In this document: one piece after another, positions 31,371 through 32,140 of the stretch | How the letters are laid out: each line of letters starts with the position of its first letter | Numbering within the stretch: position 1 is the stretch's first letter | From: Bacteroidaceae bacterium | GTDB taxonomy: Bacteria; Bacteroidota; Bacteroidia; Bacteroidales; Bacteroidaceae | NCBI GenBank assembly: GCA_024697785.1 | Contig: JAILEU010000007.1 | Span: 1 to 46,362 of the forward strand | DNA length: 46,362 nucleotides | Direction of reading: 5' to 3' | Position numbers and translations under genes: made by a program | Notes under the pieces: generated by a model | Told to the model about the DNA's origin: nothing | Database searches by the model: none | What the model saw: only the letters and a program-made list of their open reading frames with translations

Positions 31371-31475
31371 AGAGTTAAACGCTGTTCGCTCAGAATCAAA
31401 CGCTGCGAGAATAGAATCAAACGCTACGGAAATAGAATCAAACGCTGCGCGCTCAGAATCAAACGTTGTCATCAC
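31371..31475. repeat. 21-bp tandem repeat, five copies
   Basis: Five 21-bp units starting at 31371, 31392, 31413, 31434 and 31455, with core AGAATCAAACGCTGCG. The length is a multiple of three, so several frames on both strands stay open through it (for example ESNAARI heptads on the plus strand and FDSERAA on the minus). Confidence 0.88.
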
Positions 31476-31542
31476 GGCGTCAAGCGCCAGCCTATACTCT
31501 TTTTCTCGTCTCCATTTTAGAGGTTTTTCGCAAAAAAATGCC

Positions 31543-31998
31543 AACACCTACCTAAACTCTTATAATCAACTATAGTATAATGTATTAACCCAGGTAGGTG
31601 TTTCTCAAACACCTACCTAACACCTACCTAACACCTACCTAACACCTACCCAACACCTACCTAAAGAGCAAACGTTCAAGTTCCGGAAGACATATAATGA
31701 AGCCTGAGTTAAGGCTAAGAAAGGTTGATTCACGACTTGTTTTTGTCACATCTCGCCGCATCTCGGCCAACTGTAGAGACGCGACATGTCGCGTCTTCTT
31801 TTTTGCCCTCTTTTTTCCAAGATTCTTGTCTTGCAAGGACTCTCTATGCCATAAAACCCCGAAAAAAGGTAACTGATGAGGTAGGTGTCAGGTAGGTGTC
31901 AGGTAGGTGTTAGGTAGGTGTTAGGTAGGTGTTTTGCAAACACCTACCTAATCCAACGTCTTGCGGTACAATTTGTTACAAGGATTCAGGTAGGTGTT
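31543..31998. repeat. Large symmetric fold-back element built of 11-bp units
   Basis: The unit is AACACCTACCT or its complement AGGTAGGTGTT. The left array (31592-31662) has one inverted copy, a CTC spacer and five direct copies. The right array (31879-31949) is the mirror image: five copies, a short spacer and one inverted copy. Single outer copies lie at 31543-31553 and 31988-31998, each 38 bases from its array. Everything is symmetric about 31770.5. Similarity continues outward into the flanks (AAAAAATG near the left end, CATTTTTT near the right). It lies in the 998-base gap 31143-32140, in which I see no convincing gene. Confidence 0.9.
31777..31796. repeat. Perfect 20-bp palindrome followed by a T-rich tract
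   Basis: AGACGCGAC and ATGTCGCGTCT form a perfect palindrome near the centre of the fold-back element, followed by TCTTTTTT and another T-run. It resembles a dispersed palindrome (GTAGAGACGCGACATGTCGC type) known to me from other genomes. It could act as a terminator. Confidence 0.7.
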
Positions 31999-32140
31999 GG
32001 CCATTTTTTCAAAAAAACTATATAAATATAAGAACTTCCACAAAGCTCCCGTTCCTTCGGAGGCTTGGATAATGGAAGAGATAGTTGACCTATGTAGATA
32101 AGCTAATGATCTACATAAATCTAAAAAATAGGATTTTGAG

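Follow-up and report, generated by a model that had tools for sequence, protein, structure and literature searches.

The mirror-symmetric element at positions 31514–32027 of the window (the whole stretch of 46,362 nucleotides analysed, from a Bacteroidaceae contig) is probably, at roughly 0.65, a non-autonomous copy of a transposase-less family whose full form is arm–vapE–arm and whose helicase would act on the iterons of the arms. At the level of sequence comparison the family, its arms, its single gene and a coupling between the tail of the protein and the repeat unit are established.

Structure of the window element

The unit is the 11-bp AACACCTACCT, copies of which were counted at no more than one mismatch. 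A computed scan placed 14 units in 31543–31998, and all 14 have a mirror partner about 31770.5, in agreement with the exact symmetry claimed in the initial annotation. The units of the left half start at 31543 (+), 31592 (−), 31608 (+), 31619 (+), 31630 (+), 31641 (+, one mismatch) and 31652 (+), those of the right half at 31879 (−, one mismatch), 31890 (−, one mismatch), 31901 (−), 31912 (−), 31923 (−), 31939 (+) and 31988 (−). Each side thus begins with the outer unit; the inverted unit follows after 38 nt and the five tandem units after a further 5 nt, and the halves lie 216 nt apart. The 38-nt outer spacers and the outer flanks matching in inverted orientation were also as claimed; the flank match is a piece of a T-tract/A-tract palindrome that is present at the ends of other copies. 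The parts of the element are the following.

31514–31542, + strand: left end, T-tract/A-tract palindrome (TTTTTCGCAAAAAAA) plus GCC; end sequence common to 36 elements (72 ends)
31543–31553, + strand: left outer unit (unit scan)
31554–31591, no strand: spacer of 38 bp within the left end module (60 bp); sequence diverged, some columns conserved (alignment of 76 distinct modules)
31592–31602, − strand: left inverted inner unit, predicted to pair with the first array unit as a hairpin with a 12-bp stem (DNA fold)
31608–31662, + strand: left tandem array of five 11-bp units (unit scan)
31663–31878, no strand: middle, no predicted gene; position of vapE in full-length elements (comparison with other copies)
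31879–31933, − strand: right tandem array of five units (unit scan)
31939–31949, + strand: right inverted inner unit (unit scan)
31950–31987, no strand: 38-bp spacer of the right end module (module search and alignment)
31988–31998, − strand: right outer unit (unit scan)
31999–32027, − strand: right end, GGCC-ATTTTTTCAAAAAAAC T/A-tract palindrome (end comparison)

The entire window contains 15 units, against a mean of 0.5 and a maximum of 2 in 20 first-order Markov surrogates. A chance origin of the repeat was rejected on this maximum and on genome-wide controls of about zero for unit and module. The 71-nt arms (31592–31662 and 31879–31949) are 92% complementary, and the left arm folded as single-stranded DNA gave a hairpin with a 12-bp stem and a 3-nt loop (z = −4.26; 0 of 200 shuffles equally stable). 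For the middle, which had been described as unrepeated, no counterpart was found in the other copies compared. The palindrome with a T-tract that had been noted there (AGACGCGACATGTCGCGTCT) lies at 31774–31800; it looks like a separate dispersed repeat because a similar one adjoins the element of locus L051. Directly to the left of the element, at 31371–31486, are five copies of a 21-bp tandem repeat of the AGAATCAAACGCTGCGCGCTC type. The element gave two sub-threshold matches only in Rfam (E 0.1 and 0.39).

Dispersed copies and their positions

The host genome (G000; 3.24 Mb in 201 contigs, 84.6% complete) contains 154 exact units (control 0 + 1 = 1) and, with up to three mismatches allowed, the 60-bp end module 31 times (control 0). 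By position there are 13 two-armed elements of 147–716 bp, intergenic and scattered over the contigs, including one (C129) that has lost its middle and right array; in addition one copy is cut by a contig end (C108) and others are half or partial. A crude gene finder predicted no gene inside the two-armed elements. The units are near-invariant, yet the 38-bp spacers average 50% pairwise identity (32 exact-unit modules from several genomes), and by eye the middles of the copies are unlike one another. Outward from the outer unit both ends read G-G-C, T-tract, A-tract, with GGCGTTTTTTTGGAAAAAACC as the majority sequence.

Within the genus the AACACYTACCT module (at most two mismatches) occurs in 6 of 19 genomes, with 31, 31, 25, 23, 18 and 1 modules. 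The search of relatives that the initial annotation had proposed gave an identical or near unit in 7 of 399 family genomes, the seventh belonging to another genus (G242, unit AACACTTACCC), and genomes without a module match may carry other units. Thirteen named stretches with this geometry come from four assemblies, three of which are labelled rumen Bacteroidaceae or Prevotella. Besides its AACACTTACCC arms G242 holds a further variant unit, AACACTTACTA (L129:4249–4308, contig G242:C40), and L069:3412–6857 (G242:C98) has a one-sided arm at a distance of about 0.2 kb from a sequence that we take to be a CRISPR array, with presumably cas-like genes beyond. Arrays of CCTCTCACT were found at 14 matches (control 0) in G237, a single-contig genome. 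Apart from the vapE element it has two short mirror elements of about 0.45–0.51 kb, located at 1212276 and 3550344 and keeping the same end spacing (49 bp, start to start), and one-sided CCTCTCACT arms at 522 and 3218.

Two findings that would have counted against the interpretation were named at the outset, namely confinement of the symmetry to one strain and an assembly artefact. The first does not hold, as 7 of 399 family genomes have this or a near unit and related vapE elements with other units are present in further genera. The second is very unlikely because the geometry, with diverged spacers, recurs at many loci and in the assemblies of other species. The suggested likeness to MITE-like elements with subterminal tandem repeats fits the dispersed copies without a gene. 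These might be ordinary MITEs, whose ends are recognized by a DDE transposase encoded elsewhere and in some copies of which vapE is captured cargo. Dispersed intergenic copies of this size with terminal inverted repeats and no gene are in favour of this, as is BrickBuilt of Porphyromonas gingivalis, which PMC4596501 presents as a MITE with internal tandem repeats. Against it, a scan of 36 elements for a target-site duplication, which the initial annotation had proposed to look for, revealed only noise, and the gene between the arms was vapE in every long element examined, in two genera. Together with the behaviour of the C-terminal domain described below, this makes an ordinary MITE improbable.

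A flank match (at least 350 bp, at least 80%) to an element of another genome was observed for 16 of 55 elements, in a comparison of fetched flanks only and with one of the 55 having a misplaced edge. In G000, G001 and G009 the vapE element adjoins a DbpA-like gene; in G003 the DbpA-like gene is without a neighbouring element and the two vapE elements are located elsewhere. The gene next to the window element has orthologues in 18 other genomes, six of which were checked (G003, G017, G001, G009, G014 and G016); no element was found within 1.5 kb downstream of these six, and their further neighbours differ too. Occupied positions therefore differ in part between species, and some are common. 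Host regulatory or nucleoid-organizing sites (terminators, structural hairpins) with which vapE became secondarily associated could account for the common positions, the stable arm hairpin and the absence of a gene predicted by the crude finder. Such sites would not be expected to differ in position, as the absence of an element downstream of the six orthologues shows for the window locus, nor to have units that follow the protein of each element and vary even within a single genome, and we regard this explanation as highly improbable.

A clean empty site, also among the checks proposed by the initial annotation, was looked for at three places (the window locus, the vapE locus linked to DbpA and a short copy of G237) and not obtained; the last comparison is uninformative on the boundary because homology in the relatives ends at about the stop codon of the neighbouring gene. 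A clean insertion or deletion of about 420 bp distinguishes the near-identical loci L063:2507–2928 and L132:2777–2780 of G003 and G017. In G001 and G017 the elements L070, L071, L072, L073 and L131 have about 190–400 bp of flank in common on one side (72–92% identity), which may reflect capture, nesting or a preferred target; L071 and L131 are one orthologous place. We infer that the family is mobile.

Two loci that are 98% identical have the 5-nt loop of their inner hairpin in opposite orientations, CAAGC as against GCTTG (L049:4611–4615 and L053:3675–3679). This points to formation of the hairpin in vivo or during replication. Covariation in the inner stem of the spacers was weak (526 observed against 492 expected at the symmetric register), and it is not claimed because the excess at register −1 was as high (35.8 versus 34.1).

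Full-length elements and the coupling of VapE to the repeat unit

Some of the half elements pair up as the ends of longer elements of 1.63–1.73 kb with one gene between the arms. The same arms enclose this gene in G003:C6 (1658 bp), G003:C76, G009:C49, G001:C29 and the contig-cut G000:C162, and a homologous gene is found between AACACTTACCC arms in G242:C20, from the other genus. The product of about 406 aa is VapE-like (PF05272, E 9e-34) with a C-terminal DUF3874 winged-helix-like domain. Within the genus, close relatives (at least 84%) are confined to G000, G001, G003 (two copies) and G009, all of them readable as 406 uninterrupted codons starting at ATG, with a TAA ahead of this ATG in two; the remaining VapE matches across the 19 genomes have at most 35% identity. 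A close vapE is thus present in four of the six genus genomes with the unit and in none of the 13 without (Fisher p ~0.004). It was not found in G017 (18 sites; assembly 88% complete) or G014 (one site; incomplete assembly). In the vapE elements used for the arm tests below, the right arm begins a median of 7 nt past the gene and the upstream arm lies 120–862 nt upstream.

The elements read encode either vapE alone or vapE and an HU-HIG protein; no transposase or nuclease is encoded, and integrase and phage-packaging genes are absent from these one-gene (1.63–1.73 kb) or two-gene elements. The cognate transposase proposed as one possibility by the initial annotation was not encountered in the elements read, and a candidate for the binding protein that it proposed as the other is VapE. 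In L325–L330 vapE is separated from the left end by a divergent HU-HIG-type gene (PF18291, E 4.4e-12, for L326 only; the others look alike). The vapE element of L317 (G237:C1) is apparently interrupted, within 2.7 kb upstream of vapE, by a three-gene insertion, which we take to be IS66-like and separate. We infer that the vapE elements are the autonomous parents of the copies without a gene. The window element has its arms in common with them and no gene of its own; judged by this it is thus a putative non-autonomous member of a helicase-only, iteron-ended family. An alternative in the initial annotation, paired iterons recognized by a DNA-binding protein, also fits, the full-length version encoding a likely binder in its VapE-type helicase.

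A search of the 399 family genomes for the vapE subfamily (at least 48% identity) gave 58 matches in 33 genomes of six genera. Of these loci 51 were fetched and seven left unfetched; six lacked a flank on one side, which left 45 with usable flanks on both. L161, outside the 45 for want of one flank, nevertheless shows arms. In a motif-free test each upstream flank was compared with the reverse complement of the downstream flank, with mismatched pairs as the null. With 1.26-kb flanks 28 of 45 loci scored above the 99th percentile (51) and 30 above the 95th (31) of 400 mismatched pairs. Wider flanks revealed end pairs in six more (L156, L160, L175, L181, L182 and L146), all above the 95th percentile (29) and three above the 99th (89) of the wider-flank null. 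Matched mirror ends were accordingly present in 36 of 45 loci, a few of which, such as L158, have a terminal hairpin and not a clear array. In the other nine, ends were not found within 5.5 kb upstream (L163, L164, L168, L169, L183 and L187), in a flank cut by the contig (L155) or in short flanks (L165 and L178). Most loci have the same layout with a unit of their own, typical ones being AACACCTATCA, AACCCTCCACT, AACCTGTCACT, AAGACCTAACA, AACATGTACCT, CCTCTCACTC and CCCTACACTCA.

Among 22 more distant VapE loci, intended as negatives, four exceeded 51 and ten exceeded 31. The score alone is not clean, since 10 of 22 pass the 95th percentile. L092 and L101 proved to have other repeats; L083 and L096 (9-bp unit) have true arms and L082 and L084 probably do. 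The design is therefore wider than the subfamily and the distant set no clean negative, because L083 and L096 have true arms. The end repeats of L083, L096, L082 and L084 (VapE 31% identity) are of a CTACAC type, spaced at 9 bp in L083 and L096. This suggests a wider class. In a second, hand-picked and not random, sample from another genus (20 regions fetched, four of which, L303–L306, were regions of neighbour genes without vapE), 14 of 16 vapE loci passed the 95th percentile (66) of a null from 240 mismatched pairs, which is raised by pairs of elements having a unit in common; L297 (42) and L310 (30) fell below it and were accepted by eye. Viral contigs contained no close relative, only 21–35% identical ones, and the best matches in phages and plasmids were all below 60% identity.

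In 29 element proteins mean identity was 70% in the helicase core, 38% in the N-terminal region and 33% in the last ~62 residues. All 29 match VapE (PF05272) and DUF3874 at E ≤ 0.01, member 1 below Pfam's cut-off for DUF3874. A profile search matched the core to PDB 7pds (E = 2.5e-14), an entry titled 'Similar to D. nodosus vapE', which we take to be a SaPI-type Rep. The tail is predicted in the winged-helix order H-E-H-H-E-E with block pLDDT of 73–89, in structure models of low confidence (pLDDT 53 for the whole fragment, in which only the tail is readable, and 67 for the tail alone). Winged-helix DNA-binding proteins (Fur, TubR, forkhead and ArsR types) make up most of the 50 PDB matches listed for it; Foldseek gave none at E ≤ 0.001, all those listed having E ≥ 0.03.

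ParR binds 11-bp repeats of R1 parC, and VapE might bind the arrays for control of its own gene or for anchoring of the DNA, as at a partition or copy-control site and without replication. We consider this unlikely. The 11-bp arrays do flank the gene on both sides, the tail is winged-helix-like and TubR is among its weak structural matches, whereas the protein resembles a helicase and not a known filament-forming motor, and the 13 two-armed copies without a gene scattered in one genome have no evident partition role.

Coupling between protein and unit was tested first with units read by eye and later with the repeated 6-mers of the arms. With eye-read units, C-terminal identity controlled for helicase identity correlated with the unit (r = 0.33, p = 0.0002, n = 29), also without three near-duplicates (r = 0.19, p = 0.002) and without L186 as well (r = 0.14, p = 0.04). 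The 6-mer tests excluded L297, which has no repeated 6-mer, and near-duplicates, L172 among them, were thinned from 44 to 33 loci. For the C-terminal domain r was 0.47 (n = 44) and 0.36 (n = 33), with p = 0.0002 each, and for the N-terminal region 0.17 (p = 0.0002, n = 44) and 0.10 (p = 0.03, n = 33). With the upstream arm only, the C-terminal domain controlled for helicase and N-terminus still gave a partial Mantel r of 0.35 (p = 0.0002, n = 33); the N-terminus controlled for helicase and tail gave r = −0.01 (p = 0.53, n = 33). Physical linkage as the cause was rejected by this test, because the distant arm beyond the other end of the gene still tracks the tail, and this is also unexpected of a passenger in a MITE. 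Concordance between left and right arms was 0.68 versus 0.03, to some extent an effect of the method, which located the ends by their left-right similarity.

Natural tail swaps in two genomes follow this pattern. The three elements of G143 have helicase regions that are 99–100% identical, tails that are 44–52% identical and three different units; their nucleotide identity is 100% over long stretches and drops to 46–61% from about codon 350. The helicases of two elements in G237 are 97% identical, their tails 24%, and their units differ. L159 and L186 have a common tail (92%) and a common unit. Counter-cases are L149 and L172 of G376, with tails 89% identical and units read by eye as different, and L107, whose two sides differ (AACACTTACCT versus AACACCTACCT). 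The C-terminal domain of VapE thus appears to be coupled to the unit of its element, the tail being apparently matched to the repeat sequence.

Proposed mechanism and relation to known systems

In the mechanism that we propose the C-terminal winged-helix domain would bind the 11-bp units as iterons. Tandem units at about one helical turn would load the VapE helicase ring at each end, and the outer unit and the first, inverted one may serve to mark or fold the ends. Mirror-image loading would then unwind the element or the DNA flanking it, in the manner of self-loading Rep helicases at SaPI and SCC origins. Copies without a gene would keep both arms and borrow the helicase in trans. New positions would presumably be reached during replication via host enzymes and without target duplication; our guess is that host replication and repair carry out the cutting and joining. 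Sister elements in one genome may change tail and unit jointly and so escape mutual interference or titration by their copies without a gene; such a joint change would be advantageous because copies with the same unit compete for the helicase, as in plasmid incompatibility. The broader proposal, of a widespread transposase-less mobile class in Bacteroidales in which one self-loading helicase recognizes and mobilizes the element via its iteron arms, and in which tail and arms are swapped together to evade gene-less parasites or each other, is tentative and falls slightly short of an even chance.

Mobile elements normally encode a nuclease or transposase. A helicase-only element with a dozen or more gene-less relatives in one genome would, if true, represent a new way for DNA to move or to replicate selfishly. 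With tail and unit varying in concert, the family would form a natural series of dozens of helicase/iteron pairs for the study of DNA recognition by initiators, and a source of orthogonal origin-recognition parts. A role is also offered for some of the many unexplained VapE genes of gut and rumen Bacteroidales.

R1 parC, with its two sets of short repeats, resembles the arms, and AAV-type terminal repeats likewise combine terminal hairpins, tandem binding elements and a hexameric helicase. This likeness is one of layout, and no nuclease domain was recognized here. VapE proteins of the BT4734/BF3469 family of Bacteroidales are also VapE helicases with a DUF3874-type annotation, but the nearest frames are of ~680–740 aa and 35–41% identical. 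Iteron-reading initiator helicases and MITEs are each known, separately. Features of both are combined in the present elements: as in SaPIs, an AAA+ helicase of the VapE kind (29 of 29 with PF05272) and tandem iterons next to its gene; as in MITEs, dispersed short copies without a gene and with inverted ends, for which the parent with the same ends encodes the helicase.

PF05272 domains are described in PMC5862659 as predicted helicases of mobile-element replication. SaPI Rep and the SCCmec helicase Cch2 are AAA+ helicases related in their core to the present VapE, as the match to 7pds indicates. According to PMC7581432 they are thought to self-load, and their C-terminal domain binds short direct repeats just downstream of the gene, where the right arm is placed here. 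In contrast to SaPI and SCC elements, the element here has the repeats at both of its ends, the elements read lack genes for an integrase, a primase or packaging, derivatives without a gene are dispersed, and unit and tail change between co-resident elements. BrickBuilt is likewise intergenic and without a gene, at 10–20 copies per genome, with inverted ends and internal tandem repeats, but according to PMC4596501 it has one 23-nt array and IS5-type ends, whereas the present elements have mirrored arrays of 11-bp units. They differ from MITEs in that no target duplication was seen in the 36 elements scanned and a helicase-bearing parent is identified. In the open PMC literature no description was found of helicase-only VapE elements bounded by iteron arms. 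The helicase belongs to a known superfamily; the type of element is apparently undescribed.
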